NCBI RefSeq assembly: GCF_014075995.1
Contig: NZ_CP055153.1
Coordinates: 1,302,001 to 1,366,000, forward strand
Direction of reading: 5' to 3'
DNA: 64,000 bases
Origin: Adhaeribacter radiodurans
GTDB lineage: Bacteria; Bacteroidota; Bacteroidia; Cytophagales; Hymenobacteraceae
Positions within the stretch are counted from its first letter, which is position 1; each line of letters starts with the position of its first letter. The notes beneath the pieces are model-generated. The model searched no databases, was not told the DNA's origin, and saw only the letters and a program-made list of their open reading frames with translations. This document shows, piece by piece, positions 4,028-54,285 of the stretch. Position numbers and translations under genes: made by a program.

Positions 4028-4250
4028 AGTAGCGTTTACTTTTTTCTTTGGAGCCTGTTCCAGTCTCCAGAATCAGGTGCTGATGCGATTCAACGGCCTA
4101 AGTTTGCCTCATGGCCGGCGGGCTTCGTTTGGCTATGGAGCACTCGCTATCCTTCCTTTCCTTGACTCCGTCAGCGGAATACTGCTGCGCAGTACCGGAA
4201 GCTTAGCAGGTGCTCCATAGCTAAACTGGTGTCATTACGTGGTAGCTAAA
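4028..4250 (+). repeat. Structured interspersed repeat, copy A (plus orientation)
   Basis: Outer flank: TTTGGAGCCTGTTCCAGTCT at about 4047-4066. Conserved block: GCCTCATGGCCGGCGGGC at about 4106-4123. Inner flank: CTAAACTGGTGTC followed by TAGCTA. Between block and inner flank is an imperfect palindrome: GGCTATGGAGCAC at 4131-4143 pairs with GTGCTCCATAGC at 4210-4221, and a small inner palindrome (TACTGCTGCGCAGTA) lies near 4180-4194. It is paired with copy B in inverted orientation. The ORF lying across it is not credible as a gene. Confidence 0.85.
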
Positions 4251-4350
4251 GCCATTCTTGTTTTACTGGCTTTTTCTATTTACTATGTAGTGATTACTAA
4301 TTTTCTACAGTTGATGACTTAGATTAAGTTACAATTTTTTACCACCTCTG

Positions 4351-4371
4351 CCCCTCCTAAAATAGGAGGGG
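4351..4371. repeat. Short G/C-rich hairpin repeat (second family), copy 1
   Basis: CCCCTCCT at 4351-4358 and AGGAGGGG at 4364-4371 form an 8-bp perfect stem with an AAAAT loop. It lies in the spacer between structured repeat copies A and B. Related sequences occur at 23981-24002, 24498-24517 and 49684-49724. Confidence 0.7.
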
Positions 4372-4428
4372 AGCTTGCAATATTTTTAAAATAACTAAAG
4401 GAGTTAATAAGTAGTAGCAATATCCGGC

Positions 4429-4640
4429 GCTACACGCAAGAAATACCAGTTTGGCTGTTGAGGGCCTTTTAGCGTTCCGGTGCTGCGCAGCAGCATGGCG
4501 CAGTGCAACGAGCCAAGGTTCGCTAAACTGCCCGAAAGAGCCAAACGAGGCCCGCCGGCCATGAGGCAAACTCAGCCGGTTAAAACAAGATGGAACAGGA
4601 AAATGGAGACTTGAAAAGGCTCCACGGAAAAACCTTTTAT
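4429..4640 (-). repeat. Structured interspersed repeat, copy B (minus orientation)
   Basis: Reverse-complement orientation relative to copy A. The inner flank CCAGTTTGGCTG is at 4446-4457, the block GCCCGCCGGCCATGAGGC at 4550-4567, and the outer flank runs to GGCTCCACGGAAA near 4618-4630. The interior differs from copy A: TTGAGGGCCTTTTAGCGTTC on one side and CCAAGGTTCGCTAAACTGCC on the other, closely matching copies D and G. Confidence 0.85.
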
Positions 4641-5234
4641 TCAAATTTTATGGTATAGGGTTTATACTATAGTGGTATAAGTTACCTGCTTTCACTTAAG
4701 CTGAATTGCCTTGAATAAGATTTAAACACTTGAATTTATTAAATTGATTAATTAAAAGCGCATTTCTCCGAATGTCAAAAATTAGGATAGCTTTTCTGTT
4801 ACGGACGAGAAGCTGTAATTTAAAATGTGTGCATTGGAAATAGTTTACAATTACTTTTTAGGGCCATATAGGGCCACATAATCTAAGAGTACTTATCTAA
4901 ACAATTAAAATTCAGGATACCTCCCTTCAACTGTAAGAACAGCTTCTCCAGCTAATCTTATTACCTGTTTTAAAACTTATAAAAAAATTAAGCCCTTTCT
5001 TAAAATCATTATCCACGATCTTACCATAATAGACTAGTAAATAGTAGTGGCAGTGGCATTTTGTTGAAATTTTTAAATTTCAGACAAGTAGGTACCGGAC
5101 ACAACAGGATAGTGCGAGCTAACAATGCCTGTAATTTCAAGATTATTAACCTGCTCTAACAGAGAGTAAAGGATCCTTCTAATCGCTAATATTAAGGCTA
5201 TGGCTATCTGAATATAAATAGTAAAAAATTCCAC
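4641..5234. other. Upstream region of susC
   Basis: About 590 bp of AT-rich DNA without a credible gene. The only feature I can support is the 13-bp motif at 5103-5115 listed separately. No clear -7/-33 promoter was found by eye. Confidence 0.5.
5103..5115 (+). promoter_or_regulatory. Shared motif AACAGGATAGTGC upstream of susC
   Basis: AACAGGATAGTGC lies about 120 bp before the susC ATG. The identical 13-mer occurs at 10028-10040, about 95 bp before the dehydrogenase-cytochrome fusion. Similar placement before two genes of one locus suggests a regulator site or a conserved leader element. No regulator gene is present in the window. Confidence 0.45.
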
Positions 5235-8200
5235 ATGTTCCACCTAAAAACACTTACGTCTATGCAGTACCTAATACTTAGAAAGTTGAAACTTATTTTT
5301 ATTCTTCCCCTCTTTTTCTTCTCCATTACCAACCTTCTGGCCCAAACTGCTACTGTTACCGGAAAAGTTGCCGATGAAAAAGGAGAAGCTTTACCAGGAG
5401 TTACAATCCTGGTGAAAGGTACTACCAATGGTACCACTACCGATGCTGGTGGTAGTTTTTCTTTAAACGTGCCCAATGGGAATGGTACACTTAGTGCTTC
5501 TTTTGTGGGTTATTTAACGCAGGAGATTCCTATTAATAATAGAACTACCATTAACATAACCTTAGCGGCCGATACCAAAGCATTAGAAGAAGTAGTAGTA
5601 ATAGGCTATGGAACTCAAAAAAAATCGGACGTAACGGGTGCCGTTGCCTCGGTGAAAGCGGAAGCGCTGGAAGAACGACCTTCGGCTAATCTTACCCAGG
5701 CTTTAGCTGGTAGAGTGCCCGGAGCTAATGTGTCAATAAACTCCGGCCGGCCCGGTGGAGCCGCCAATATCCGGATCCGGGGAAATACTTCGGTGAGTGT
5801 TACCAATAACCCACTTTATGTGGTAGATGGCGTTATTCTGAACGTTACTAATTTAGGCAATGGTACGTCACCGATTGATTACATGAACCCCAACGATATT
5901 GCTTCTATTGAAGTATTAAAAGATGCTTCGGCTACGGCTATTTATGGAGCCCGGGGTGCTAACGGCGTTATTCTGGTAACCACTAAGCGGGGTAGCAAAG
6001 ACGGCGGACGGGTAAATTACGACACCTATTTCAGCGTAGGTACCCTTACCCGTAAGCTTGATTTATTAAATTCAGAAGAATTTTTACATGTAGAAGACGT
6101 AGCCTACCAGAACGCCGAAAAATATGACCCCGAAGGTTGGGCGGCCGGCAAATACGTTGACCCTAAAACGAAACGAACTAATCCTTTGCTGTTTGATGCC
6201 AATGGCCGGCCCTTGTACGATACCGATTGGCAAAAAGAAGCCTCTCAAAAAGCTACTACCCAAAACCATCAGTTATCATTTACCGGTGGCACCGATAAAT
6301 CCAGCTTTGGCGCTTACCTGGGCTACCGCAACGAAGATGGCGTAATGCGCGATTCGTGGCTGAAGCGTTATTCTGGCCGTTTTGTTTTCGATAGTCAGAT
6401 TAAAGATTGGTTAAAAGTAGGCGGCTCGTTGGGTTATAACGATCAGCAGGAAAAGCAACTGGATTTGCAAGGCGAAGGTGGTATCACTTTCATGCGTCAG
6501 GTTCTGGAAGCCCTTCCTATTATTCCAATCAAATATCCGAATGGAACCTGGGCCGGCAATGCCGATTATCCGGGTATGGAAGGGGGCGACAATCCTTTAC
6601 AAGTTGGAGCAGAACGGAGATATATTCTTAAAACCCAAAACACCTTAGGTAACTTATACACCAATATCCAAATAACCAAAGACTTGGAGCTAAGAACGGT
6701 ACTGGGAACCAATATAATCAACCAGGGCATTAATTACTACGGCGGCCGGGAACTGAACTATATTTCCCAAGACCAAGGCGGCGTGGCGTACGTACAAAAC
6801 CAGCGGCATAATTCGTGGCAGTTCGAAAATTATCTAACTTACAATAAAAAAATATCTACTAACCATTCCATTACTGGCTTATTAGGTTTGTCGTGGCAGC
6901 ACGTAGATGTGTTTACCGCCCGGGCACAGTCGCAGAATTTTCAGGATGATTATTTTGGGTATAATAACTTAGGAGCCGGCGCAACCGCCGTGGCACCTAC
7001 TTCCGGTACTACTGCGTATGGCCTTAATTCTTATTTCGGACGGGTAAATTACAGCTTAAAAGATAAGTATTTAGTAACGCTTACCGGTCGGGCCGATGGG
7101 TCTTCTAAATTTGGTTCAGAAAACCGGTATGCCTTTTTCCCTTCAGCTGCTTTAGCCTGGCGCGTATCGGAAGAAAACTTCCTGAAAGGCACGCCCGCTA
7201 TATCGGATTTAAAATTACGTACCAGCTACGGGGTAACGGGTAACTCCGAAATTAACGCTTACCAGGCCGAAGCCGGAATGGGCAACTACGAGGTTATTTT
7301 TAATGGTACCCGTACTATTGGGGTAGGCGTAAGCCGCTTAGCCAATCCAAATTTACAATGGGAAAAAACGTATCAGGTAGATGCCGGTTTGGAGTTAGGT
7401 TTGTTTAGCAACCGGATTGCGCTGGAAGTGGATGTGTACCGCAAGAAAACCACCAATATGCTGTTAAGCGCTCCTGTACCTTCAAGCAGCGGCTATACCA
7501 CCGTTACCCGCAATGTGGGCAGCATGGAGAACAGAGGAATTGAATTCGGGCTGAATACGGTAAATATTTCTACTGGTAGTTTTACCTGGAACACTAACTT
7601 TAATATTTCTATCAACAAAAATAAAGTATTGGCTCTAACTGGCGGCGATGATATTTTTTCCGGCCGCGGCATTATCCGGGAAGGTGAACCGGTAGGTTCG
7701 TTCTTTGGCTACGTACGTCAGGGAACCTGGAGCACCGCCGAAGCCGACCAGGCTGCCAAATATTTACGCTTACCCGGCGACGTAAAATACCAGGATGTAA
7801 ACAACGACGGACAAATTAACGACCGGGACCGGGTGATTATTGGTAAAGGTATTCCAGATGGCTTTGGTGCTTTAATCAACACCTTTAAGTATAAAAACTT
7901 TGATTTAACGCTCGATTTACAGTTTATGTACGGCAATGATGTTTCTCTGGCCAGCCAACACTCCTCCGAAGACCGCCAGGGTATTGCCAACAGTTTTGCC
8001 ACCGTATTAAACGCCTGGACCCCCGAAAACCAAAACACCGACATTGCGCAATGGCGCCCCATTCCAGCCGGTTACGATACCTTTGATGATAGCCACCGGG
8101 TACAAGATGCTGATTTTATCCGGGGCAGAAATTTACTATTTGGGTATAATTTTAACGCAGGGGTAACCGAAAAACTGCGCATCAGCCGGTTGCGGGTGTA

Positions 8201-8351
8201 TGCCTCGCTGCAGAATTTCTTCCTGATTACCAAGTACGAAGGATATGATCCGGAAGTAGCTACCTCGGGTGGTACCTTCGATCAGGGTTTGGCCTTATAT
8301 GATTATCCAAAACCTCGCGTGTTTATGGTTGGTCTTAATCTTGGTTTTTAA
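5235..8351 (+). CDS. SusC/RagA-family TonB-linked outer membrane transporter
   Basis: The protein has 1038 residues, within the usual SusC range. A signal peptide ends near NLLAQTATVTGK (about residue 36). A carboxypeptidase-regulatory-like domain follows (about 38-115, GEALPGVTILVKGTTNGT). Next come the TonB-box region with EEVVVIGYGTQKKSDVTGAV, a plug domain (about 125-235, including IRIRGNTSV and the conserved DASATAIYGARGANGVI), and a 22-strand-type barrel to the C-terminal aromatic residue (VGLNLGF). The family imports glycans or oligosaccharides with a SusD lipoprotein; that gene follows 24 bp downstream. ATG 5235 is used, but ATG 5262 (MQYLILRKLKL) gives a more typical signal peptide. 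The substrate cannot be read from sequence. Confidence 0.95.
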   Translation: MFHLKTLTSMQYLILRKLKLIFILPLFFFSITNLLAQTATVTGKVADEKGEALPGVTILVKGTTNGTTTDAGGSFSLNVPNGNGTLSASFVGYLTQEIPINNRTTINITLAADTKALEEVVVIGYGTQKKSDVTGAVASVKAEALEERPSANLTQALAGRVPGANVSINSGRPGGAANIRIRGNTSVSVTNNPLYVVDGVILNVTNLGNGTSPIDYMNPNDIASIEVLKDASATAIYGARGANGVILVTTKRGSKDGGRVNYDTYFSVGTLTRKLDLLNSEEFLHVEDVAYQNAEKYDPEGWAAGKYVDPKTKRTNPLLFDANGRPLYDTDWQKEASQKATTQNHQLSFTGGTDKSSFGAYLGYRNEDGVMRDSWLKRYSGRFVFDSQIKDWLKVGGSLGYNDQQEKQLDLQGEGGITFMRQVLEALPIIPIKYPNGTWAGNADYPGMEGGDNPLQVGAERRYILKTQNTLGNLYTNIQITKDLELRTVLGTNIINQGINYYGGRELNYISQDQGGVAYVQNQRHNSWQFENYLTYNKKISTNHSITGLLGLSWQHVDVFTARAQSQNFQDDYFGYNNLGAGATAVAPTSGTTAYGLNSYFGRVNYSLKDKYLVTLTGRADGSSKFGSENRYAFFPSAALAWRVSEENFLKGTPAISDLKLRTSYGVTGNSEINAYQAEAGMGNYEVIFNGTRTIGVGVSRLANPNLQWEKTYQVDAGLELGLFSNRIALEVDVYRKKTTNMLLSAPVPSSSGYTTVTRNVGSMENRGIEFGLNTVNISTGSFTWNTNFNISINKNKVLALTGGDDIFSGRGIIREGEPVGSFFGYVRQGTWSTAEADQAAKYLRLPGDVKYQDVNNDGQINDRDRVIIGKGIPDGFGALINTFKYKNFDLTLDLQFMYGNDVSLASQHSSEDRQGIANSFATVLNAWTPENQNTDIAQWRPIPAGYDTFDDSHRVQDADFIRGRNLLFGYNFNAGVTEKLRISRLRVYASLQNFFLITKYEGYDPEVATSGGTFDQGLALYDYPKPRVFMVGLNLGF

Positions 8352-8375
8352 TTTAATCCGTTTAAAACATCTGTT

Positions 8376-9887
8376 ATGAATAGCATCGTTAAAAAATATA
8401 TCAGTCATTCAGTTCTAGGCATTTCCTTACTACTTTTTAGTACCAGTTGTGATGATTTTCTGGAAGAAACCGACCAGTCTAATTTTACTCAGAATACTTA
8501 TTTTACTAAACCAAAACATGCCGAAAGTATCGTAAACGCTATATACGCCGATTTAAGGTCCACTACCGGTGGTGGTTTTAATGGCGCTCCCTGGATGATG
8601 CTGGAATTTGCTACCGGACTTGCCAACACCGATTTAGGGCAAGCCCAAAACAGTATTAACGTTCGTAACCTGGCTAACAATTCGGATAATTCGTACGGCG
8701 GAACTTACTGGACCAGCAGCTTCAGGGGTATTGCTAATGCCAACCTGGCAATTAAAAATATTCCCAACATAACCATGGACGAAGCCCAAAAAGCCAAGTT
8801 ACTTGGCGAAGCCAGGTTCTTACGGGCGTATTATTATTTTAACCTGGTACGGATATTTGGGGCAATTCCTTTAATTACCGAGCCGATTGATTTAAATTCA
8901 GAAGCATTATACCCGCCTAAAGCTACCGAAGAAGAAACCTATAAATTAATTGTAGATGATCTGGTTGCGGCCGAAGCGGCTGGTTTGCCCATTACCGATA
9001 AAACTGGAAAAGTAACTACCGGAGCCATTAAATCATTACTATCCAGCGTGTACCTGACTATGGCCGGGTATCCTTTACAGAAAGGGGCAGAATATTATAA
9101 AAAAGCAGCCGACAAAGCCCAGGAGGTTATCACCTCTAATGCCTACAGCCTGTTTACTTCTTATAACGACTTGCACAACGAAGCTACCGAAAATACCGGC
9201 GAACACATTTTTATGGTGCAATTTGCTCCCTTTATTATGGCTTCGGGCTGGCAAACCTCTATTATTCCGTACAACAAAGGTATTTCTGCCTACTCCGACG
9301 AAACCGGGGCTATCTATGCCAATACCGATTTTATTCAGACGTATGAACCCGGCGACAAACGTACCAGGGAAAAAGAATTTTACTTTAACGAATACAGCCT
9401 GAGCAGCGACCGGAATTCGAACATCAATTTAGGTGGTTACTTTATTTATAAGTTCTTCGATCCCAAAGCCCAATTGGAAACTACCAGCAGCGGCTTAAAC
9501 TGGATGTTAATGCGTTATGCCGAGGTTTTATTAATCTATGCCGAAGCAGCCAATGAAGCATCGGGCGGACCCACTGCAGAAGCCTACGAAGCTATTAACC
9601 AAATAAGAAGAAGAGCCGAGTTGCCGGAATTACAAGGCTTAAACCAGCAAGCGTTCCGGGAAGCTACCTGGCGCGAAAAATGGCATGAGCTGAGCTACGA
9701 GAATAAAACCTGGTTTGATATGGTACGTCTGCGCAAAGCCTTTAATGTAAAAACCGGGAATTTTGACGACTACGTAGGCCACCAGTTCTCGTACGGCCCG
9801 GTATTAAAAGATCGGGAACTTTTATTCCCGATTCCAACCGCCGAAATCCGGAACAATAAAAATCTAGTTCAGAACACAGGTTATTAA
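8376..9887 (+). CDS. SusD/RagB-family nutrient-binding outer membrane lipoprotein
   Basis: The 503-residue product begins with a lipoprotein signal ending LLFSTSC, with Cys at about residue 25 followed by DDFLEETDQS, a typical SusD start. The N-terminal half holds TPR-like helices (GEARFLRAYYYFNLVRIFGAIPL is the family hallmark). The C-terminal half has NQIRRRAELPEL, WREKWHELSYENKTWFDMVRL and LLFPIPTAEIRNNKNLVQNTGY, all classic SusD_RagB motifs. It caps the SusC barrel and binds glycan at the cell surface. It lies 24 bp after susC and is surely cotranscribed with it; a hairpin follows at 9917-9957. Confidence 0.95.
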   Translation: MNSIVKKYISHSVLGISLLLFSTSCDDFLEETDQSNFTQNTYFTKPKHAESIVNAIYADLRSTTGGGFNGAPWMMLEFATGLANTDLGQAQNSINVRNLANNSDNSYGGTYWTSSFRGIANANLAIKNIPNITMDEAQKAKLLGEARFLRAYYYFNLVRIFGAIPLITEPIDLNSEALYPPKATEEETYKLIVDDLVAAEAAGLPITDKTGKVTTGAIKSLLSSVYLTMAGYPLQKGAEYYKKAADKAQEVITSNAYSLFTSYNDLHNEATENTGEHIFMVQFAPFIMASGWQTSIIPYNKGISAYSDETGAIYANTDFIQTYEPGDKRTREKEFYFNEYSLSSDRNSNINLGGYFIYKFFDPKAQLETTSSGLNWMLMRYAEVLLIYAEAANEASGGPTAEAYEAINQIRRRAELPELQGLNQQAFREATWREKWHELSYENKTWFDMVRLRKAFNVKTGNFDDYVGHQFSYGPVLKDRELLFPIPTAEIRNNKNLVQNTGY

Positions 9888-9916
9888 AAAAGTAAATCAG
9901 AATTAGTTTTCAAGTC

Positions 9917-9957
9917 AATCCGGCAAGAACTGGTGCTCAACCCTTTCTTGCCGGATT
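9917..9957 (+). terminator. Hairpin after susD
   Basis: AATCCGGCAAGAA at 9917-9929 pairs perfectly with TTCTTGCCGGATT at 9945-9957 (13 bp, 15-nt loop). There is no real T-tract behind it, so it may be a weak terminator or an mRNA-stabilising hairpin separating susCD from the next gene. Confidence 0.6.
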
Positions 9958-10027
9958 CTCCTATAATACCACCGGTTGATAATTACTCTTATTGGTTTGC
10001 CTGATTATAAAAGGTAGTAAAAGGAAA

Positions 10028-10040
10028 AACAGGATAGTGC
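10028..10040 (+). promoter_or_regulatory. Shared motif AACAGGATAGTGC upstream of the dehydrogenase fusion
   Basis: Identical to the 13-mer at 5103-5115. Here AGGATAG is repeated directly 10 bp downstream (AGGATAGTGCAGGATAGG, 10031-10048), which would suit a dimeric or side-by-side regulator site. It lies about 95 bp before ATG 10135. Confidence 0.45.
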
Positions 10041-10134
10041 AGGATAGGTTAATGGGAGCATTTATCTACAATTAAAAGTAGAATGCTGCGGAATCCGGAA
10101 TAGAATTCATATTTTTAGATAAATAAAATAGTAA

Positions 10135-13317: not shown

Positions 13318-13416
13318 TTATTTTTTTTGTTGGTTATTCATTACTCGTTGCACGGTAAAAATGACTTGGGTAATATATTAACTTAGTGGGAGATGAGTAA
13401 AAATTGTCCTTTATCT

Positions 13417-13449
13417 AGCGCCCGTGTTCAGTGAATCGGCACGGGTGCT
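13417..13449 (+). terminator. Possible terminator after the dehydrogenase fusion
   Basis: AGCGCCCGTG at 13417-13426 pairs with CACGGGTGCT at 13440-13449 (one G-T pair, 13-nt loop). Only TT follows, so it is a weak candidate. Confidence 0.4.
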
Positions 13450-13573
13450 TTAAAGACAAACAGAAGTCTTTGACTTTCGGAAGTTACAAACTCTATCTTA
13501 AGGGAGAGTACTCGTTATATTTCACTGAATGACACCGGCCAGCTCAGGAAACTTAATTTAAAAAATAAATGAA

Positions 13574-13613
13574 AACGCGAGTTGTATGAAGTATAATTTA
13601 TACAACTCGCGTT
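13574..13613. promoter_or_regulatory. 14-bp perfect hairpin upstream of the ThuA gene
   Basis: AACGCGAGTTGTAT at 13574-13587 pairs exactly with ATACAACTCGCGTT at 13600-13613 around a 12-nt loop. It sits 45 bp before ATG 13658, so it could be a leader structure or operator rather than a terminator. Confidence 0.5.
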
Positions 13614-13657
13614 AAATAACTTAGTACAAAATAGATTTAGCCTCTTATTTGCGGTTT

Positions 13658-14545: not shown

Positions 14546-14576
14546 AAGTTTTTAATGCCGAAAGGCAACAAATAAG

Positions 14577-14610: not shown

Positions 14611-14640
14611 TTGTGGGGTGAATTCCTGTTCACTTTTAGA

Positions 14641-14840
14641 ATCTTTTCTAGCCTCCAGGGGGCGGTGCTAATGCGATTTGACAAGTAACCAGTTCGCCTC
14701 CTGGCCGGCGGGCCTCGTTTGACTTCTTCGCGCGGTGTATCCTTTCTTTCCTCCTTCGTCGGAATGCCTCGTGCCTCGGCACCGAAAGTCTACAAGGCGC
14801 GAAGAAGTCAAACTGGTCTCGTTTGTTCTTAGTTACTGCT
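14641..14840 (+). repeat. Structured interspersed repeat, copy C (plus orientation)
   Basis: Conserved block CGCCTCCTGGCCGGCGGGCC near 14695-14714 and inner flank AACTGG followed by TTAGTTA. The interior arms are a third variant: GACTTCTTCGCGC at about 14721-14733 pairs perfectly with GCGCGAAGAAGTC near 14797-14809. The outer flank is degenerate (TAGCCTCCAGGGG). Pairs with copy D. Confidence 0.8.
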
Positions 14841-15290
14841 ATTCTTGCTACTCCCTTATTTTTTATACTGGTATCTTAAGTGTAATTCGTAGAGGTAGAG
14901 ATGTTCCGTTTTATTGTTAAATGCAGGTATTACTTTGAATAACGCGAGCGTCCTCGCTCGTGTTGCTCATTGTCCGGTCTCTGGCCGGTAGGGTTTTGAT
15001 TTGCATTCTCGTAACTAAAATCTATAGGTGTTCCCGGCCAAGGGCCAACCTTAAAGTAGATACGAGCGAAAACACTTGTGCCTGCATTGTTTTAAAAATT
15101 AACCGTAAGAACCTAAGTCAGTCTCCTGACTGACGTAAAATGGCCTGGTTTCCGCCAGTCGGGAGACTGGCTTATGTCTGTAAGCCACAAGTCCCGCTCC
15201 GCTAAGACTTGCGCTAGCAAGGTTAACAAAGACAGTAAATGAAGACAAGTTAATTAACCATCTTCATTTTCGGCCAAAGTAAGATTAACG
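14841..15290. repeat. Spacer module between copies C and D, homologous in reverse to 24328-24720
   Basis: About 450 bp without a credible gene. Reverse-complemented, large parts match the spacer between copies E and F. Examples are the TTAGCGGAGCGGGA segment (15190-15215 versus about 24412-24428), the AACAAAGAC...GAAGAC..GTTAATTAACC stretch (about 15221-15262 versus 24358-24400) and a CAGTCTCCTGACTG...CAGTCGGGAGACTG hairpin near 15119-15170. No protein-like frame spans it. Confidence 0.75.
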
Positions 15291-15505
15291 GTAGCTACTA
15301 GCAAAGACACCAGTTTGGCTGTTGAGGGCCTTTTAGCGTTCCGGTGCCGACGTAGGAGGCATGGCGCAACGGAGTGAGCCAAGGTTCGCTAAACCGCCCG
15401 AAAGAGCCAAACGAGACCCGCCGGCCATGAGGCAAAACTCAGCCGGTTCAAACTAGATAGCACCGCAGCCTGGAGACTGGAACAGCCTCCACAGAATACC
15501 AACAA
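15291..15505 (-). repeat. Structured interspersed repeat, copy D (minus orientation)
   Basis: Inner flank GTAGCTAC..CACCAGTTTGGCTG at about 15291-15321, interior arms of the TTGAGGGCCTTTTAGCG / CGAACC-TTGG type, block CCCGCCGGCCATGAGGC near 15417-15433, and outer flank GGAGACTGGAACAGCCTCCA near 15472-15491. The interior resembles copies B and G. Confidence 0.85.
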
Positions 15506-15517
15506 TTAAAACGTATT

Positions 15518-15896: not shown

Positions 15897-16007
15897 CCAC
15901 TATGGCGCGGAAGTTACTTCCGTGACTTCCAATTATCTTATCAAAAAAAAGCATCTATTGTTAGAAAAAGGAAATAAGGCGCAGAAGTAACTTCCGCGCC
16001 ATAGTGG
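15897..16007. repeat. 24-bp inverted repeat between the mutarotase and GH95 genes
   Basis: 15897-15920 (begins CCACTATGGCGCGGAAG) is perfectly complementary to 15984-16007, with a 63-nt loop. It looks like a small mobile or processing element. It is too long-looped for a simple terminator, but it could still affect transcription between the two genes. Confidence 0.75.
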
Positions 16008-23769: not shown

Positions 23770-24124
23770 AAGCGCATTTAAGGATTCTTGTTTCAAATAA
23801 TGAGATAGTAAAACTAATACGAACACCTAAGTTAAGTGAAAAGACAAATTAAGTACTTCAACGAAATTAGGTGAGACTATTATTTATAATAAGTGGTTGA
23901 GCATTAAAAATTTACTAAACTAACAACGAGCAACTAATAACGAATAACTACTTATATAGGATAAGTTGGAGGTAAAAGCTCCTCTCCTAAGTTCAGGAGG
24001 GGTAGGGGTGGTTGTTTTTTTAACTACCAGGGAAAATGAATATTTATTTTGTCTAGTAGCTTATCATTTAGTAATATCCATTATTCCAAAGGCAATAAAG
24101 TTTTTCTAAAAGAAACGATTATCA
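23770..24124. other. Intergenic stretch before repeat copy E
   Basis: About 350 bp of AT-rich DNA. It contains one short G/C-rich hairpin repeat (23981-24002) and no credible gene. Confidence 0.5.
23981..24002. repeat. Short G/C-rich hairpin repeat (second family), copy 2
   Basis: CCTCTCCT at 23981-23988 pairs with AGGAGGGG at 23995-24002 (one G-T pair), followed by TAGGGGTGG and a run of T at 24015-24021. It lies just upstream of structured repeat copy E. Confidence 0.65.
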
Positions 24125-24327
24125 TTGGAGTCTGTTCCAGCCTCCATGTTATGGTTCCATCTTGTTCAATAAGTAACCAGTTTGCCTCGTGGCCGGCGGG
24201 CCCCGTTAGGCTCTTCTGCACTCGCTAGCCTTCCTTTCCTCGACTCCGTCTGCGGAATACTGCTGCGCAGTACCGGAAGTCTAGCAGGTGCTCCACAGCC
24301 AAACTGATGTCTTTATTCTTAGCTACC
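24125..24327 (+). repeat. Structured interspersed repeat, copy E (plus orientation)
   Basis: Outer flank TTGGAGTCTGTTCCAGCCTC at about 24125-24144, block GCCTCGTGGCCGGCGGGCC near 24184-24202, interior of the copy A type (CTTCCTTTCCTCGACTCCGT ... TACTGCTGCGCAGTA), inner flank AGCCAAACTGATGTC and TTAGCTACC. Pairs with copy F. Confidence 0.85.
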
Positions 24328-24720
24328 GTTAATCTTACTTCATCCGAAAAGGACGAGGGTTAATTAACTGGTCTTCTTTTTACGGTCTTTGTTAACCTTG
24401 CAGGCGCAGATCTTAGCGGAGCGGGAATTGTGACTTACAGATAAAAGCCCGTCTCCCGACCAATGTTATAACGTTGAGCTAATTGAAAGAAAAAAGTCCC
24501 CCTTTGAAGGGGAAGGGTGATGATTTAAAGCATCTGATCAAAGGTTATGATACGTGTCAATCCTTAACTTAATAACATTGGTTTCCCGACTGTCGGAAAC
24601 CCAGCCTTTTTACGTCAGTCAGGAAACTAATTTAGGTTCTTACACCCAAGTGACGCTAGGCTTAACACTTGCACGAAGAGGCAGATTTACTAAATTCTTT
24701 ATCTCTGATAGCTAGAACCA
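24328..24720. repeat. Spacer module between copies E and F, homologous in reverse to 14841-15290
   Basis: About 390 bp with several blocks matching the reverse complement of the C-D spacer (see that entry). An extra segment at about 24461-24595, absent from the C-D spacer, includes a second-family hairpin repeat at 24498-24517 and looks like a later insertion. No credible gene. Confidence 0.75.
24498..24517. repeat. Short G/C-rich hairpin repeat (second family), copy 3
   Basis: CCCCCTTTGAAGGGGAAGGG forms a short hairpin and resembles the other G/C-rich copies. It lies inside the E-F spacer within a segment lacking in the C-D spacer. Confidence 0.55.
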
Positions 24721-24941
24721 GGTAGCTACTGGCAACAACACCAGTTTGGCTTTTGAGCGCCTTGTAGACTTCCGGTGCCGAGGCACGAGGCATTCCGACG
24801 CAGGAGGAAAGGAAGGATACACCGCGCGAAGAAGCCAAACGAGGCCCGCCGGCCAGGAGGCTAACTTAGGCTTAGCAAATAAGATGAACCAAGGCATGGA
24901 GACTGGCACAGGCTCCAAAGAAAACGCTTACTAGCAAGCAA
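24721..24941 (-). repeat. Structured interspersed repeat, copy F (minus orientation)
   Basis: Inner flank GTAGCTACTGG..CACCAGTTTGGC at 24723-24750. The interior is of the copy C type (CTTGTAGACTTCCGGTGCCG ... ACCGCGCGAAGAAGCC), but its outer arm is changed to TTTTGAGCGC, so here the two arms no longer match fully. Block GGCCCGCCGGCCAGGAGGC near 24843-24861; outer flank GGAGACTGGCACAGGCTCC, then AAGAAAACGCTTACTAGCAAGC near 24898-24939. Confidence 0.85.
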
Positions 24942-36717: not shown

Positions 36718-36719
36718 AT

Positions 36720-44847: not shown

Positions 44848-45762
44848 ATGGAATTATTAAAACAACTTTGTCAGATTCATGCTCCCTCGGGCAATGAGGT
44901 GAAACTCACTCAATTTTTATTGGAATACATTGAACAGAATAAAGCCAATTGGCGGATAACGCCACAAGTAATTGCCGGTGAAGGATTTCAGGATTGTATT
45001 ATTCTAGTGTTCGGGCAGCCCCGTACCGCCCTATTTGCGCACATCGACTCAATTGGCTTTACAGTTCGCTATAGCCGGGAGTTAATTACAATTGGCGGGC
45101 CGGATACCGAAACGGGTTACCGGCTGGTGGGAGAAGATAGTCAGGGACCCATTGCCTGTACCTTACACGTGTCTGAAGAAGATAATAGTTTGAGTTACGA
45201 GTTTGAACGGGAAATTGAACGCGGTACCGAACTGGTTTTTGCCTGCGATTTCCGGGAGACAGAAACTACGGTACAATCGTGCTACCTGGATAACCGTTTA
45301 GGCGTTTGGAATGCTTTAGAGGTGGCTAAAACTTTGGAAAACGGAGCTATTGTATTTTCGTGCTGGGAAGAACACCGGGGTGGTTCGGTAGCCTACCTGG
45401 CAAAGTATTTACACGAAAAATATGGGGTAAAACAAGCCTTGATTTCTGATATTACCTGGGTAACGGAAGGAGTTCATTCGGGTAAAGGTGTAGTTATTTC
45501 GCTGCGCGATTCTTTAATTCCGCGGCGCAGTTTTGTGAATAAATTAATTGCCCTGGCACAGCAAACAAATATTTCTTTTCAGTTAGAGGTGGAAGGAGCT
45601 GGCGGCAGCGATGCCAAAGAATTGCAACAAAGTAGTGTGCCCTGGGATTGGTGTTTCGTGGGAGCCCCCGAAGACAACGTACATTCTCCCGACGAAATCG
45701 TTTATAAAGCCGACATTCAAAGCATGGTAGCCTTGTACCAAGTACTCATGCGAAATCTGTGA
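44848..45762 (+). CDS. M42-like metallo-aminopeptidase
   Basis: 304 residues from ATG 44848 ([17 protein letters not shown]); the TTG at 44827 is less likely. The zinc-peptidase landmarks are all present: AHIDSIGF (His), [11 protein letters not shown] (bridging Asp), CWEEHRGG (catalytic Glu pair), LISDITWV (Asp), and [12 protein letters not shown] near the C-terminus (last His). Family M42/M20 enzymes trim N-terminal residues of peptides in the cytoplasm. It is shorter than typical M42 enzymes (about 340-360 aa). Confidence 0.85.
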
Positions 45763-45887
45763 AATCCGTTTAATCTGTGATTCTTTTTTATTTGCTTTGG
45801 TGGCTTGCAGATGTGGAATTAATAGGTTTAATTTACCAGATACGCATATAGTATAAAAAGCATTCTTATCAACTTAAACCCGTCTAC

Positions 45888-48101: not shown

Positions 48102-48125
48102 TAGTAAGATATTGTACAATTATCT

Positions 48126-48158
48126 AAGCCCTTAAAGCAATTTAAGGGCTTGTTTTTT
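48126..48158 (+). terminator. Intrinsic terminator after hppA
   Basis: AAGCCCTTAAA at 48126-48136 pairs with TTTAAGGGCTT at 48141-48151 around GCAA, followed by GTTTTTT. Confidence 0.9.
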
Positions 48159-48561
48159 ATTAAGGTTATCTTTCGTGCGGATATTATACGAGGTAGTATT
48201 TACTAAATACCAGGAGAAATTGGGTATTAGTAAAAGGTTAGAATTAGGGTAAAGGAAGGAAAATTTATTTGTCGGGTTATTCAGGAGGAGACTATATTAA
48301 ATAGTTTACTGCTGAAGGGTTCGCACATTTTAGCTTATTTCTTTTACTTCTTTCAATCATACGCTCGGACAGCTTTTGATTATCTATCGAACTGAGCTAA
48401 TACTATTGGGTATTAAAACCATTATTATTCCCCAATTCGGAAGGGAAAATCTAATAGGCGGTAGATTTTAATTCGACCTAAATATTACTTAAATAAAAGA
48501 AGCGTCTAAATTATTTTCAACTCGTAAATTGCAATTGGCAACTAAAAACCTGCAACTAATT
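48159..48561. other. Intergenic stretch upstream of hpt
   Basis: About 400 bp with no credible gene, repeat copy or clear promoter. The stretch CAACTAAAAACCTGCAACT at about 48539-48557 resembles the CCTGCAACCTGCAACT string near 42953-42968, a common low-complexity intergenic repeat type. Confidence 0.4.
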
Positions 48562-49104
48562 ATGAGCGACTCAACGGTTCAACTGCACGACAAAGAATTT
48601 ACTATTTACTTACAGGAAAATGAAATCCGGCAAGCAATCGAACGTTTAGCTGTTCAAATTAATCAAGATTACAAAGAAAACACCCCGGTTTTCTTAGCTG
48701 TTCTGAATGGCTCTTTTATGTTTGCCTCTGATTTAATGAAAGAAATAAAAATTCCCTGCGAAATTTCTTTTATCAAATTAGCTTCCTACCAAAATACCCA
48801 AAGTACTGGTACCGTGAAAGAATTGGTAGGCTTAAACGAAGAAGTAAGAAGCCGGCATATCATTATTTTAGAAGATATCGTGGACACAGGGCATACCGTA
48901 AGTGTACTTTTAGAGAAATTACAGGCCTTTTCCCCTGCTTCTATCCAAATAGCAAGTTTGCTTTTAAAGCCAGCCAGTCTGCAGCATCCTTTGCAATTAA
49001 AGTACACCGCTCTTTCTATTCCCAACGATTTTGTGGTAGGGTACGGGCTAGATTATAACGGTTTAGGACGCAACCTTCGCCATCTTTACAAGGTCAAGAG
49101 CTAA
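48562..49104 (+). CDS. hpt: Hypoxanthine phosphoribosyltransferase
   Basis: About 180 residues from ATG 48562 (MSDSTVQLHDKEF); the ORF extends upstream to a TTG, but that part is not protein-like. The PRPP-binding motif IIILEDIVDTGHTVS lies near residue 95, FLAVLNGSFMFASDL near 43-57, and DFVVGYGLDYNGLGRNL near the end. It salvages hypoxanthine and guanine to IMP and GMP in the cytoplasm. Adenylate kinase lies about 900 bp downstream. Confidence 0.93.
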   Translation: MSDSTVQLHDKEFTIYLQENEIRQAIERLAVQINQDYKENTPVFLAVLNGSFMFASDLMKEIKIPCEISFIKLASYQNTQSTGTVKELVGLNEEVRSRHIIILEDIVDTGHTVSVLLEKLQAFSPASIQIASLLLKPASLQHPLQLKYTALSIPNDFVVGYGLDYNGLGRNLRHLYKVKS

Positions 49105-49123
49105 TCAGTAGGTTCTTAAGTAG

Positions 49124-49144
49124 TTGTTCGTTGTTCGTTGTTCG
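49124..49144. repeat. Three tandem 7-bp units TTGTTCG
   Basis: TTGTTCG occurs three times in a row directly after hpt. Short runs of this kind are common between Bacteroidota genes. Confidence 0.7.
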
Positions 49145-49202
49145 ATGATAGGTTGATTACATTTTGATAATTGTGCTATTGTATCAAAATGTTAACATAG
49201 GT

Positions 49203-49426
49203 TTTGCTTGCTAGTAAGCGTTTTCTTTGGAGCCGGTTCCAAGTCTCCAGACACAGGTGCTAACTTATTTGACAAGGCTGAGTTTGCCTCGTGGCCGGTG
49301 GGCCTCGTTCGGCTATTGAGGGCCTTTTAGCGAACCTTGGCTCACTGCGTTGCGCCATGCTCCTCTGCAGCACCGGAACGCTAAAAGGCCCTCAACAGCC
49401 AAACTGGTGTCTTTGTGCTTAGCTAA
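49203..49426 (+). repeat. Structured interspersed repeat, copy G (plus orientation)
   Basis: The best-preserved outer flank: TTGCTTGCTAGTAAGCG then TTTTCTTTGGAGCCGGTTCC at 49205-49240. Block GCCTCGTGGCCGGTGGGCC near 49286-49304. Interior arms: GGCTATTGAGGGCCTTTTAG(CG) at 49311-49332 and its complement at 49379-49400, 21 of 22 pairs. Inner flank AGCCAAACTGGTGTCTTTG, then TTAGCTA. Confidence 0.88.
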
Positions 49427-49583
49427 TGCATTTCTTCCACATCTTGTATAATGAAGGATAGGAAAATTTTTTAACCGTCTCCTAATAATTTTTAAAATTA
49501 AACTTCTTGGTTCTATTTCTCGCTCAGCACTTCCTGATAAAGTCAGTTTAATACAATCTAATAATTCTTAAAAAAGTAAAAAC

Positions 49584-49810
49584 AGTAGCTAAATGCAAAG
49601 GCACCGGTTGGGCTATGGAGCACCTGCTAGGCTTCTGGTACCGCAGGCATTCTGTAGGAGTAATTTAGAAAATAACGGCATCTCCTCCCCTGTTTTTAGG
49701 GGAGGTGCCTTTAGGCGGAGGGGTTTTCTAGGCCTACCAGCCTCGAGGCAAACTTAGGCTGTTCTATTGCATCAGCACTGCAGCCTGGAGACGGGAACCG
49801 GCTCCAAAGA
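49584..49810 (-). repeat. Structured interspersed repeat, copy H (minus orientation), interrupted
   Basis: Inner flank AGTAGCTAAATGC..GGCACCGGTTGGGC at about 49584-49613, then GCTATGGAGCACCTGCTAGG (copy A type arm), broken near 49660. From about 49661 to 49733 a second-family hairpin repeat and flanking bases replace the conserved block. The outer flank resumes as GCAGCCTGGAGACGGGAACC at about 49781-49800, then GGCTCC. Confidence 0.78.
49684..49724. repeat. Short G/C-rich hairpin repeat (second family), copy 4, nested in copy H
   Basis: CCTCCCCT at 49684-49691 pairs with AGGGGAGG at 49698-49705, then TGCCTTTAGGCGGAGGGG. It lies inside structured repeat copy H, showing that the second family can insert into the first. 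Confidence 0.7.
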
Positions 49811-49979
49811 TGGATTAATAAGAAGTCTTGTAACTTCAATTTTAAAAAATTTTAAAATTAAGAGAGATATACCTGTATTTTTACAAAAAGTTTTCTTTAT
49901 CAAGGTTCTATCAAGATAAATTTTTAAGAAATTCCGTGTAATCCTTTAATTTGTTTAATCAACGATTCAATATTATTTG

Positions 49980-49987
49980 TACTTTTG
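49980..49987 (+). promoter_or_regulatory. Candidate -7 box of the adk promoter
   Basis: TACTTTTG fits the Bacteroidota TAnnTTTG box and lies 22 bp before the adk ATG. No good -33 element is found at the right distance, so support is modest. Confidence 0.35.
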
Positions 49988-50009
49988 AATTTATTAACTT
50001 AAAAAAGGC

Positions 50010-50600
50010 ATGTTAAATATTGTTTTATTTGGCCCTCCGGGTGCGGGAAAAGGAACGCAAAGTCAGAAATTAATTGATACGTATAACTTAATTCACCTTT
50101 CTACCGGTGATTTGCTGCGCTCAGAAATTGCGGCTGGTACCGAATTGGGATTGCGGGCCAAAAAACTAATGGATCAAGGAACGCTGGTGCCCGACGAAGT
50201 AGTAATTGGAATGATTGATTCCAAGCTCAAAGAAAATAAGAACGCGGCTGGTTTTATATTTGATGGTTTTCCACGCACAGTACCTCAAGCTAAAAGCTTA
50301 GATGCTTTACTCGAACAAAACCATACGGCTATAAGTGGCATGATTGCCTTGGAAGTAAACGAAGAAGAGCTAACCAAACGCCTTTTAATCCGGGGGCAAA
50401 CTTCCGGCCGTCCAGACGATCAAAACGAAGGATTAGTGCGGAAGCGCGTACAGGAATACAATACCAAAACTGCTCCCGTAGCGGGTTATTATGCTAATCA
50501 GGGCAAATTCAACGCTATTAATGGTATTGGGGAAATTGAAGAAATCTTCACCGAAATTTGCGAAATTGTTGATGCCTTCGCTGTCCAGCCAAAAGCGTAA
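50010..50600 (+). CDS. adk: Adenylate kinase
   Basis: The 196-residue product has P-loop FGPPGAGKGTQ at 7-17, LSTGDLLRSEIAAGTELG, FDGFPRTVPQA near 85, and a short LID region RGQTSGRPDDQN without the zinc-finger cysteines of long-type enzymes, as is usual in this phylum. It equilibrates ATP + AMP with 2 ADP. A very strong hairpin lies between adk and obgE. Confidence 0.96.
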   Translation: MLNIVLFGPPGAGKGTQSQKLIDTYNLIHLSTGDLLRSEIAAGTELGLRAKKLMDQGTLVPDEVVIGMIDSKLKENKNAAGFIFDGFPRTVPQAKSLDALLEQNHTAISGMIALEVNEEELTKRLLIRGQTSGRPDDQNEGLVRKRVQEYNTKTAPVAGYYANQGKFNAINGIGEIEEIFTEICEIVDAFAVQPKA

Positions 50601-50960
50601 ACAGACGAAAACCCAAGGACAATAGACCAAGCCCATCTGGGACAGCAATATTAAAAAATCTGCTTAGAGAATGGAGTAGTGATCTTGGGTTTAAACTACT
50701 GGGAAAGATTTAATAGAAACTCATTTTTAAAATCTTTTGGCTGCGTGCATTTAAAGCCGCAGCTAATCAGATTTCATGGAATTTGTGTAAATTCTTTATA
50801 GCGGTTTTAAAATTAAGCACTATCTGAACCAGTTTTAGAACGAAGCAGTTACTTGTATTGGTTATAATCTAATACAAGTAACTGCTTCGTTCTAAAACTT
50901 TAAACTTACGAACTACTGCCGTGGTCTATCGACCGTGGACTGTAGACCAAAAACCAACTC
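50601..50960. other. Intergenic region between adk and obgE
   Basis: About 360 bp. It contains the 29-bp perfect hairpin at 50833-50901 and a GTGGTCTATCGACCGTGGAC segment near 50923-50942, which is similar to a common Bacteroidota intergenic string. No gene. Confidence 0.5.
50833..50901. repeat. 29-bp perfect inverted repeat between adk and obgE
   Basis: 50833-50861 is exactly complementary to 50873-50901 with an 11-nt loop (GGTTATAATCT). No T-tract follows, so it does not look like a standard intrinsic terminator. The perfect match over 29 bp suggests recent origin or active constraint. Confidence 0.85.
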
Positions 50961-51956
50961 GTGGCTACATCCAACTTTATTGATTACGTTAAAATATGCT
51001 GCCGTTCTGGTCACGGAGGTGCTGGATCGGCACATTTATTCCGGGATAAAAAAAACGCCAAAGGTGGTCCGGATGGCGGCGATGGCGGTCGTGGAGGGCA
51101 TATTATTTTAAGAGGTAATGCCCAACTCTGGACTTTGTTGCACTTACAATATCAAAAACACGTTATTGCCAAACACGGCGAAGGCGGTAGTAAAGATACG
51201 TCTACGGGTGCGAACGGGGAAGATGTAATTCTGGAGGTTCCCATTGGTACCATTGCCCGCGATGCCGAAACCGGCGAAGTGAAAACAGAAATAACAGAAG
51301 ATGGCCAAACGGTAATTCTAACCCCGGGTGGTCGGGGTGGTTTAGGAAATTCCCATTTTAAATCTCCTACCAACCAAACCCCGCGTTATGCGCAACCCGG
51401 CGAACCCGGCCTGGAAGAATGGGTAATACTGGAACTTAAATTATTAGCCGATGTAGGATTGGTTGGATTTCCTAATGCAGGAAAATCAACGTTGTTGTCG
51501 GTAGTGTCGGCGGCTAAACCTAAAATTGCTAATTATCCTTTTACTACCCTTGTGCCAAATTTAGGCGTGGTGCCTTACCGCGATTACAAGTCGTTTGTAA
51601 TGGCCGATATTCCCGGAATTATTGAAGGCGCTTCGGAAGGAAAAGGCTTGGGCCTACGTTTTCTGCGACACATCGAGCGCAACTCCATTCTCTTGTTTAT
51701 GGTGTCTGCCGAGAGTGCCGATATTGCTAATGAATATGCTGTTCTTTTAAACGAGTTGGGAACTTACAACCCGGAATTGCTGGCAAAAAAACGTTTGCTA
51801 GCGGTTACTAAGGCAGATTTACTCGACGAAGAATTGGAAAATGAAATCCGGAAGACTTTGCCGCCGCAGGTACCCGCTGTATTTATATCCAGCATCACCC
51901 AGAAAAATATTCAGGTTTTAAAAGATATGCTGTGGCAGGTTTTAACGAACGCGTAA
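50961..51956 (+). CDS. obgE: Obg-family GTPase
   Basis: The 331-residue product starts at GTG 50961; the sequence [21 protein letters not shown] matches the family start. The glycine-rich Obg fold is at 1-160 ([25 protein letters not shown]). The G domain has [11 protein letters not shown] (G1), [16 protein letters not shown] (G3) and TKADLLDE (G4). There is no C-terminal OCT domain, as in many bacteria outside Firmicutes. It binds the 50S ribosome and acts in its assembly and the stringent response. Confidence 0.96.
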
Positions 51957-52103
51957 TTTTTTTAAGCCTGCGGAATTAAAAAGTATAAATTTTCATTTAC
52001 CAGAAAAGAAACCCAGGCCTCAGATGTGTCAGATTGTCACTTTAAGGCTTTGGCAAATAAATTGATACGCACCTTACAAACCAATTGGAAGAATAAATAA
52101 GCT

Positions 52104-52682
52104 ATGTCAGCGGATAACAATACACAACCCGAAGCCGAAGATTTTGAAAATGTAACGGAGGCCAGTTTACCCGAAGATACTGGCTCCGAGCAGCCCGATT
52201 CACCTGCCGAAACCGAGCAATCAACCGGTAATGGCCAGGCATCTAAATCAGAAGCGGAATTGAACGAATTAAAAGATAAATATTTACGGTTATATTCAGA
52301 ATTCGACAACTACAAACGCCGCACTTCTAAGGAGCGTTTAGATTTGTTGAAATCTGCCAATCAGGAAATGATTGTTGCTTTGCTGCCGGTTCTGGATGAT
52401 TTCGACCGGGCTCGTCAGGCAATGGAAAATGCCCAGGAGGTAGAAGCGGTAAAAGCCGGCGTGGATTTAATCTATAATAAACTACAATCTATAATGCAGC
52501 AAAAAGGTTTGAAACCCATGGAAGCCGTAGGCCAACCATTTGACGCCGAGCTGCACGAAGCCATTACCCAGATTCCGGCCCCAGACGAAGCTCTGAAAGG
52601 GAAAGTAATAGACCAGGTAGAAAAAGGATATTACCTGAATGATAAAGTTGTTCGCTTCGCGAAAGTTATAATAGGAGCATAG
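52104..52682 (+). CDS. grpE: GrpE nucleotide-exchange factor
   Basis: The 192-residue product has an acidic disordered N-terminus (residues 1-50), a long coiled coil (ELKDKYLRLYSEFDNYKRRTSKERLDLL), then VALLPVLDDFDRARQAM and the beta head with GQPFDAELHEAI and GYYLNDKVVRFAKVIIG. It releases ADP from DnaK. dnaJ begins 4 bp after its stop, so they form an operon. No dnaK is seen in the window. Confidence 0.95.
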   Translation: MSADNNTQPEAEDFENVTEASLPEDTGSEQPDSPAETEQSTGNGQASKSEAELNELKDKYLRLYSEFDNYKRRTSKERLDLLKSANQEMIVALLPVLDDFDRARQAMENAQEVEAVKAGVDLIYNKLQSIMQQKGLKPMEAVGQPFDAELHEAITQIPAPDEALKGKVIDQVEKGYYLNDKVVRFAKVIIGA

Positions 52683-52685
52683 GCC

Positions 52686-53825
52686 ATGGCTAAGAGAGAT
52701 TACTACGAGGTATTGGGGGTGAGCAAAAGCGCCAGTGCTGACGAAATTAAAAAAGCATACCGTAAAATTGCCATTAAATACCATCCGGACAAAAATCCGG
52801 ATGATCCATCCGCCGAAGACAAATTTAAAGAAGCCGCCGAAGCGTACGAAGTTCTCAGCGACCAGGATAAACGCGGTCGTTATGACCAGTTTGGTCACCA
52901 GGGCGTAAATGGAGGCGGTTATGGCCATATGAACATGGATGATATCTTCTCTCAGTTTGGAGATATATTCGGTGGTGGCAGCCCGTTTGGTGACATTTTT
53001 GGCGGTGGCCGTTCCAGTAATGGACGCCGGGTACGAAAAGGTACCAACCTACGCATTAAATTAAAGCTCGACCTGGAAGAAATTGCCAATGGGGTGGAGA
53101 AAAAAATAAAAGTAAAACGGTACGTAGCTTGTAATACTTGCGGCGGAAACGGAGCTAAAAATGGTACGGCGCTGCAAACCTGTAGTGGCTGCCAGGGTAC
53201 CGGCCAGGTGAAAAAAGTAGTAAATACGATGTTGGGCCAAATGGTTTCCACGTCTACCTGTCCCGTGTGCGATGGCGAAGGTAAAAAAGTAAGCCAGAAC
53301 TGCGAAGTTTGCCAGGGCGAAGGCCGGGAATTAAAAGAAGAAGTAATTGCTATTAACGTTCCGGCTGGGGTAGGCGATGGCATGCAGCTTTCTATGAGTG
53401 GCAAAGGTAACGTGCCGCAACGCGGTGGTATTGCCGGCGATTTACTCATTCAGATTGAAGAAGAAGCGCATCCATTACTGAAGCGGGAAGGCAATAACAT
53501 TATATTTGAGCAGTACATCAGCTTCGTAGACGCCGTTTTAGGGGCTAATATTGAAGTGCCCACTATTGAAGGTAAAGTAAAAATTAAAATTGATCCGGGT
53601 ACCCAGGGAGGCAAAATTTTACGCTTACGTGGTAAAGGGATTAAAGATATAAACGGCTACGGTAAAGGCGATCAACTGATTCATATTAATGTTTGGACCC
53701 CGAAACACGTATCCAACGACGAACGCCAGGTGCTGGAGAAATTGCGTAACTCCGATAATTTTGTGCCCAACCCGGGCAAAAATGAAAAAGGCTTCTTCGA
53801 GAAAATGAAAGAATATTTCCAATAG
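52686..53825 (+). CDS. dnaJ: DnaJ co-chaperone
   Basis: The 379-residue product has the J domain at 1-70 with HPD ([16 protein letters not shown]), a Gly/Phe-rich linker at 75-115 ([17 protein letters not shown]), and four CxxCxGxG zinc motifs: [32 protein letters not shown]. The C-terminal substrate-binding domains include [15 protein letters not shown] and [12 protein letters not shown]. It delivers unfolded proteins to DnaK and stimulates its ATPase. Confidence 0.97.
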
Positions 53826-53889
53826 GGTCACGGATTTTCGCGGATTAACAGGATTACGCGGATTCCTTATCACAGATTTAACGTATTAT

Positions 53890-53922
53890 AAAATGCCTCT
53901 TCTGAATAAGGAGAGGCATTTT
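53890..53922 (+). terminator. Terminator after dnaJ
   Basis: AAAATGCCTCT at 53890-53900 pairs with AGAGGCATTTT at 53912-53922 (11-nt loop), then TGTTTTT. Confidence 0.8.
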
Positions 53923-54106
53923 TGTTTTTAAAAGGGTTATAATAGAATTAAAAGCGTAAAGCAGTAAACTAGAATAATAAACATAACAGAATGCCCTCCT
54001 TAAATTAAGGGAACAGGGGAAGTTAATTTTAGAGAAAAAGATAGCGCTAATTCTTAATGGTGCCTTCGAAATCATCTGATTCGATGAGAAAAAGTAAATT
54101 TTTATT

Positions 54107-54285
54107 CCATCTCTGGTTCAGGCCTTTGAGCTTTCGGGTGCAAAGCTTTCTGAGATACTAGGAAAGGAAAGATCAACAGGCTGAACCAGAGATGGGCAAG
54201 GCCCGCCGGGCACGAGGCAAACAGGGAACGGTTCAATCTTGATAGCACCGTAGTATTGAGACTGGAACAGGCTCAAAAGAATTCA
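54107..54285 (-). repeat. Structured interspersed repeat, copy I (minus orientation, degenerate, unpaired)
   Basis: Interior arms are a fourth sequence, still perfectly paired: CCATCTCTGGTTCAG at 54107-54121 and CTGAACCAGAGATGG at 54181-54195. Block GGCCCGCCGGGCACGAGGC near 54200-54218; outer flank GAGACTGGAACAGGCTC near 54258-54274. The inner flank is lost. No partner copy lies within about 4 kb. Confidence 0.75.

Follow-up and report, generated by a model that had tools for sequence, protein, structure and literature searches.

A genus-wide family of structured inverted repeats in Adhaeribacter with MITE-like ends and apparent hairpin self-copying

Introduction

Nine folded repeats of about 200 bp are scattered over one 64,000-nt stretch of the Adhaeribacter radiodurans genome (NZ_CP055153.1, positions 1,302,001 to 1,366,000; hereafter the window). 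What kind of element are they, and how do their interiors come to differ in sequence while remaining paired? An initial annotation of the window described the copies (A to I) as sharing flanks and a central block around interiors of at least four unrelated, exchangeable sequences, and suggested selection for a hairpin. Covariation is usually read as strong evidence for a selected structure. Here, more than 100 paralogous hairpins occur in one genome and their canonical, one-arm-copied and inverted states can be counted; the share of covariation made by mutation therefore becomes measurable. No earlier account of such a high-copy structured repeat for this genus was found among titles and abstract openings of the open-licence literature, and the present analysis adds one to it. 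The repeats are best explained as an old non-coding family of the genus Adhaeribacter.

Results

All nine copies are real, each being recovered by a profile search whose profile was built from the window copies. Most of them are arms of inverted pairs (A/B, C/D, E/F and G/H, with I solo; Table 1), an arrangement that the initial annotation overlooked, together with the MITE-like ends and TWA duplications of about half of such pairs. A central 25-mer, allowed up to three mismatches, has 155 matches (77 + 78) in the 6.9-Mb genome and its reversed control has 0, so the nine copies are not a product of chance. In 84 stretches of this genome plus the window, 162 arm matches were counted after removal of overlapping antisense self-matches, comprising 53 inverted pairs and 56 others; genome-wide totals are at least these figures, and a site at 4502012 is additional to the stretches covered. 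At least two of the 56 non-paired matches (326218 and 5550336) are pieces of arms already counted and several are short remnants; the 51 that score at least 60 constitute the gene-context set.

Table 1. Repeat arms, cores and composite in the window (positions in nt)
Feature	Position	Strand	Remarks
Arm A	4044..4249	+	type 1 interior; 5' stem arm appears rewritten from own 3' arm
H1 hairpin of arm A	4047..4069	+	TTTGGAGCCTGTTCCAGTCTCCA
Core of A/B pair	4250..4427	.	core type ii; nested CCCCTCC...GGAGGGG repeat
Arm B	4428..4629	-	type 2 interior; mismatched internal loop
A/B composite, TACC to GGTA	3957..4677	.	MITE-like ends; TAA each side (3954-3956, 4678-4680); by reading
Arm C	14635..14838	+	type 4 interior; stem perfectly paired; 3' arm matches copy of 5' arm
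Core of C/D pair	14839..15289	.	core type iii; other palindromic repeats inside
Arm D	15290..15496	-	type 2
Arm E	24122..24327	+	type 1
Core of E/F pair	24328..24721	.	core type iii
Arm F	24722..24922	-	type 4
Arm G	49223..49427	+	type 2; stem 21/22 paired; 5' arm of the copied kind, one base off own 3' arm
Core of G/H pair	49428..49582	.	resembles core type i
Arm H	49583..49810	-	type 1 remnant, interrupted by another repeat
Arm I	54105..54281	-	solo; profile match at 54120-54281; unusual interior, perfect 15-bp stem; G003 ortholog retains mismatched loop

The family extends across the genus. A covariance model of the arm has matches in all eight Adhaeribacter genomes, with at least 150 in A. 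radiodurans, 146 in G005, 132 in G003 and 96 in G006, and smaller sets of 60 in G002, 47 in G001 (Adhaeribacter aerolatus NBRC 106133), 4 in G004 (A. aquaticus DSM 16391) and 1 in G007. A plain DNA query matches six of the seven congeners (G001, G002, G003, G005, G006 and G007, with none in G004) and 0 of 90 genomes that belong to the same family or order but to other genera, the covariance model having covered the genus genomes. The consensus of the A. radiodurans group has 0 exact matches in the genome_contigs and viral_contigs collections, and the A. aerolatus and A. aquaticus arms present in the genome collection diverge from it. Among A. radiodurans, G003, G005 and G006, mean arm identity is 0.70-0.77 within and 0.69-0.74 between genomes, and species-specific concerted evolution was rejected on these values. 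The arms of G001 and G002 stand apart as a homogeneous set of their own, with identities of 0.79-0.86 among themselves and 0.61-0.63 to the others.

The repeat unit, an arm of about 205 nt, folds into a first hairpin (H1), which a linker, mostly with GTGCTA, joins to a short GC-rich hairpin; a long, branched hairpin completes the arm. H1 is preceded by the consensus TTTCTTTGGAG and has a loop of three bases, TNC in most copies; its stem is mostly GGAG...CTCC in the A. radiodurans group and TTGAAAGAT...ATCTTTCAA in G001, G002 and G007. H1 is forward in 86 copies and reversed in 2, with 66 fitting neither strict pattern. In the inverted pairs, H1 faces outward and the core between the arms spans 0-451 nt (140-210 nt in 37 of 53); the cores fall into at least three types. 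A further hairpin of H1 geometry at the 3' end was rejected, its column pairing being no better than shuffled, and a looser count of H1-like hairpins there gives 5.5% of arms against 0.5% of shuffles. Both arms are of the same type in 6 of 45 typed pairs, where 18.6 are expected; avoidance of like arms was rejected as a reading of this deficit, which shared descent of pairs explains equally well.

Within the window, the interior types sort by reading as first described, with A, E and H of type 1, B, D and G of type 2, C and F of type 4, and I of an odd type. The perfect 15-bp stem of I and the 21 of 22 paired positions of G were likewise found again, and the stem of C is perfectly paired as stated, over 17 bp instead of the 13 given. 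Copy H is broken up by a nested CCCCTCC repeat (all by reading). Good pairing of both arms is, on the other hand, not the rule that it had seemed from these copies: across the family, 161 of 189 parsed arms carry a mismatched internal loop, which is the usual state, and A, C, G and I stand out by their fully paired stems.

Pairing nevertheless persists while sequence changes, as the initial annotation held. In 73 A. radiodurans arms, hand-picked for diversity from 124 full-length arms, 281 double-change cells were counted against 82 in shuffled alignments. Over 36 pairs in these arms, taken from an RNAalifold structure of the same alignment with H1 added by eye, the covariation score is 0.306 against 0.118 shuffled and at most 0.072 in slid controls, and 94.5% of cells are paired against 83.3% shuffled. 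Covariation also exceeds phylogeny: among 199 genus arms, 3 of 20,706 pairs reach E < 0.05, all of them helix pairs, relative to 60 alignments simulated on a tree that was built from the same recombining arms; additionally, the interiors of the other genomic copies are not near-identical. The six top-scoring pairs all lie in helices. Much of the co-variation is nonetheless subtype structure, given that just 20 of the 60 best-scoring pairs are paired in more than 80% of arms, where the background is 16%. In a restricted test, 15 of 40 listed helix pairs pass; because this list, which includes the alternatives H2a and H2b, was made after the scores had been seen, only the three all-pairs results are clean. 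Watson-Crick pairing in the 199 arms is 0.922 versus 0.711 under independent divergence, and the 46 solo arms pair less well than 90 paired arms (0.880 versus 0.938, P = 7e-5). Significant covariation does not by itself separate RNA from DNA or from template switching.

Beyond the arms, outer flanks of about 45-90 nt start with TACC(A/C)(A/G)AT.GTA. A scan for ATACC[AC][AG]AT[ACT]GTA with up to three substitutions found this terminus next to 66 of the 106 paired arms and 3 of the 52 solo arms, compared with 3.2% of shuffled flanks. Two recognisable termini occur in 26 of 53 pairs, and 27 miss one or both; the A/B composite stands outside the 26 because the scan caught its left end only. Identical 3-bp flanks, all TTA or TAA, border 16 of the 26 two-ended pairs (9.4 expected by shuffling, P = 5.5e-4), and 4-bp identity is seen in only one of them. 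A minimal element of about 125 bp retains both flanks and a single H1. The cores of the 53 pairs are too short for a transposase; the listing of ORFs covered three wider-spaced loci. The paired forms are thus best filed with MITE-like elements, the ends being recognisable in a subset of them.

For about half of the inverted pairs, those with MITE ends, mobilisation in trans would most likely have been the work of a DDE transposase leaving 3-bp TWA duplications; going by the duplication, we take this enzyme to be IS5/IS1031- or PIF-like. Relics probably make up many of the solo arms. The parent was sought by matching ends in the PF01609 family of A. radiodurans, and none of its 19 transposase places has an arm or an end pair within one mismatch; six of the 19 genes are flanked by weak two-mismatch end combinations, with equal 3-bp flanks in none. 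Movement of the family, its transposase and any RNA function are putative.

Presence and absence at an orthologous place come from one site, between hpt and adk, where A. radiodurans carries the G/H composite and G005 a partial arm; the other six genomes have no arm match there, and their hpt and adk matches lie 95-111 nt apart. Downstream of dnaJ, the arms of A. radiodurans and G003 share one unusual interior, G005 has an apparent short H1 remnant (by reading), no arm is found in G001, G002, G006 or G007, and G004 gives only an insignificant match (E = 9.2). More broadly, an arm lies near the ortholog of a gene with an arm nearby in A. radiodurans in 11 of 44 relatives' loci, a raw count in which arm-gene distances agree in some cases and differ in others. 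Some arms at shared places are mutual best or near-best matches (L106/L039, 0.95), and others rank low.

In A. radiodurans and G005 alike, inverted arms enclose a DinB-family gene (Pfam PF05163; L086 1134-2529, L123 1001-2280), which adjoins the same 168-aa gene in each. At the 20162 site of A. radiodurans (L009), an inverted repeat, AAAAAGTCTCTGGCAGT...ACTGCCAGAGACTTTTT, that resembles a split terminator surrounds the element. A constant terminator beside solo arms was not seen by reading, and one-orientation insertion next to terminators was rejected.

Mismatches in the helices bear on the strand that folds. On the H1-first strand, A-C mismatches exceed G-T in helix cells (203 versus 139) and likewise in parsimony events (159 versus 106, p = 0.0014, for events that are not independent and with mutation bias outside the model). 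Because A-C exceeds G-T, as expected if the opposite strand folds, this asymmetry hints at a folding constraint on the strand opposite to H1-first. In line with it, RNA energy relative to simple shuffles is -72.1 versus -57.3 on the opposite strand and -70.8 versus -60.0 on the H1-first strand, the opposite strand being lower relative to shuffles in 77 of 138 arms. With genes taken as ORFs of at least 100 aa by a simple rule, the 3'-side gene points at the solo arm (stop facing) in 41 of the 50 arms with a gene called there, and the H1 side has 25 stop-facing and 24 start-facing genes. As raw counts, the pairs lie in 26 convergent, 24 tandem and 2 divergent contexts, with one unassigned.

These hints leave room for an RNA role. 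The arm could be a functional structured RNA (a 3' UTR element or small RNA) of the opposite strand that is maintained by selection, most of its transcription coming from the gene with a stop codon towards the arm's 3' side, and the inverted pairs would serve as vehicles; the 11 of 44 relatives' loci with an arm near the corresponding gene would agree with this. We consider such an account unlikely. At dnaJ, the arm comes after a terminator-like hairpin and before a promoter-like sequence (by reading), and so need not be transcribed; moreover, five of seven other genomes lack it and a sixth has the apparent remnant only. The strand statistics come from the non-independent events noted above, and no Rfam family scores above its threshold: the window gives 0 matches, and a permissive search of three loci gives 11, all below the gathering threshold, the best of which (E = 9.3e-6, 42.9 of 65 bits) places a plant microRNA precursor family on the long hairpin in each of the two L142 arms. 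Membership in a known Rfam family was accordingly rejected.

The diversity of the interiors is better described by a few old subtypes, with apparent rewriting of one stem arm from the other, than by the unrelated, freely exchangeable modules first proposed. The 162 A. radiodurans arms comprise 60 of type 1, 60 of type 2, 18 of type 3, 5 of type 4, 3 of type 5 and 16 untyped. Types 1-3 and 5 recur in relatives, where 62 of 64 arms were typed by fuzzy motifs that are loose for deep relatives. Apart from the canonical arms, the 189 parsed of 226 arms (37 unparsed) include 13 whose 5' stem arm resembles a copy of the 3' arm, 7 with the reverse (two of which, L032 and L107, are borderline by eye), 2 with an inverted loop and 6 unclear; two L142 arms grouped with the relatives in this parsing are A. 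radiodurans arms. The variable triplet is exact to the copy's own other arm in 10 of the 13 5'-copied arms (2.7 expected, 0 of 20,000 draws) and in 6 of the 7 3'-copied arms (1.4 expected, P = 5e-5), relative to random draws that match frequencies only, not relatedness. Double changes concentrate in adjacent pairs (22 versus 4.3). Copy I has one 5' substitution, and its 3' arm complements its 5' arm exactly for 15 nt where the G003 ortholog keeps the mismatch; the two together fit a one-arm rewrite.

We infer that this rewriting arose by template switching rather than by exchange with a copy carrying a matching arm. Interior diversity would then have two sources, namely a few subtypes older than the species of the A. 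radiodurans group, and hairpin-templated copying during DNA synthesis, in which one stem arm is rewritten from the other or the loop is inverted; such copying would yield compensatory changes in blocks. The pairing probably also owes something to a constraint that acts on the single strand in its folded form, either for mobility or as RNA. The earlier suggestion of selection for a hairpin thus stands as to pairing being kept; selection is not derivable from the covariation alone, because part of the pairing was probably made by mutation.

Exchange or recombination between copies could also rewrite an arm, matching whenever the donor subtype fits. The triplet match in 10 of 13 arms is compatible with inter-copy exchange and with selection for pairing, and adjacent-pair clustering is also expected from block exchange between subtypes. 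Cores and outer flanks are indeed mosaic: by reading, 4 of 20 type-i pairs have their flanks in swapped positions with respect to the core. The same subtypes are also found in relatives, and several arms from orthologous places take a low rank among the arms of A. radiodurans. That recombination or gene conversion among diverged copies is the sole source of covariation and interior diversity, with no hairpin templating, is nonetheless quite improbable: the rewritten arms match the second arm of the same copy (exact triplet in 16 of 20) far above random arms, and the two fully inverted loops are not producible by conversion between same-orientation copies.

It is very unlikely that a Y1 (RAYT-type) transposase acting on single-stranded hairpins moves the arms as REP-like units. 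Y1_Tnp genes do occur in 8 of 8 genomes, and the high copy number, intergenic position, inverted arrangement, palindromic form and complementary hairpin changes recall REP/BIME elements as depicted in PMC2817692. RAYT genes are described there, however, as always flanked by two inverted REPs, and linkage was rejected here: of 27 listed Y1_Tnp places, 20 loci were examined to about 1.5 kb on either side, and none has an arm. The unit of about 205 nt is also several times longer than the 20-40 bp given for REP palindromes in PMC3733652, the consensus before H1 departs from a GTAG-type head, and G005 has 146 model matches but one Y1_Tnp gene.

Discussion

Taken together, these findings define a family that is real, structured, mobile-looking and genus-wide. 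We propose, as an account that is somewhat probable as a whole, an old family of the genus with MITE-type mobility, whose interiors derive from subtypes and hairpin self-copying. Like MITEs, as portrayed in PMC10969869, the elements are non-coding, dispersed and intergenic, with terminal inverted repeats, short target duplications and predicted stem-loop transcripts. Distinct from MITEs as described there, the Adhaeribacter element contains a pair of structured 205-nt arms in inverted orientation, each having covarying helices of its own, the arms occur outside the MITE too, and the parent transposase is only putative. Covarying arms of this length that are also found alone, together with visible hairpin self-copying, are unusual features for a MITE-like element. 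The pneumococcal BOX, RUP and SPRITE repeats, as described in PMC3049150, are similarly lineage-restricted, structured, slowly moving and probably parasitic; compared by description, the Adhaeribacter element differs in its two inverted structured arms and exchangeable cores.

The patterns of arm rewriting would be marks of template switching at inverted repeats, for which PMC8794818 and PMC8604942 describe arm homogenisation, spacer inversion and compensatory changes as one event. That process was described for RNA genes and yeast genes; here it is inferred for a single bacterial repeat, across its numerous paralogous copies and with a template test specific to each copy. A more speculative extension, which we regard as doubtful, is that the arm, folded as a single strand and read on the strand opposite to H1-first, is a genus-specific unit which an Adhaeribacter factor recognises, and that hairpin template switching both diversifies and repairs its fold in hundreds of copies. 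If so, the family would offer a natural laboratory for watching mutation generate structural covariation that selection then filters.

Other repeats accompany the family in the window. A short CCCCTCC...GGAGGGG inverted repeat (about 4350-4375 and 49690-49730) is nested in cores and in arm H, and a dispersed inverted repeat of the CAGTCTCCCGACTG kind (about 15120-15190 and 24560-24640) occurs within cores and elsewhere. Another dispersed palindromic repeat, of the CTATGGCGCGGAAGTTACTTCCGTG kind, lies at 15897-16007 and in loci such as L010, L017, L043, L045 and L074. Two tandem-repeat regions, with periods of 180 bp and 51 bp, occupy 44-2726 and 62766-63715, respectively.
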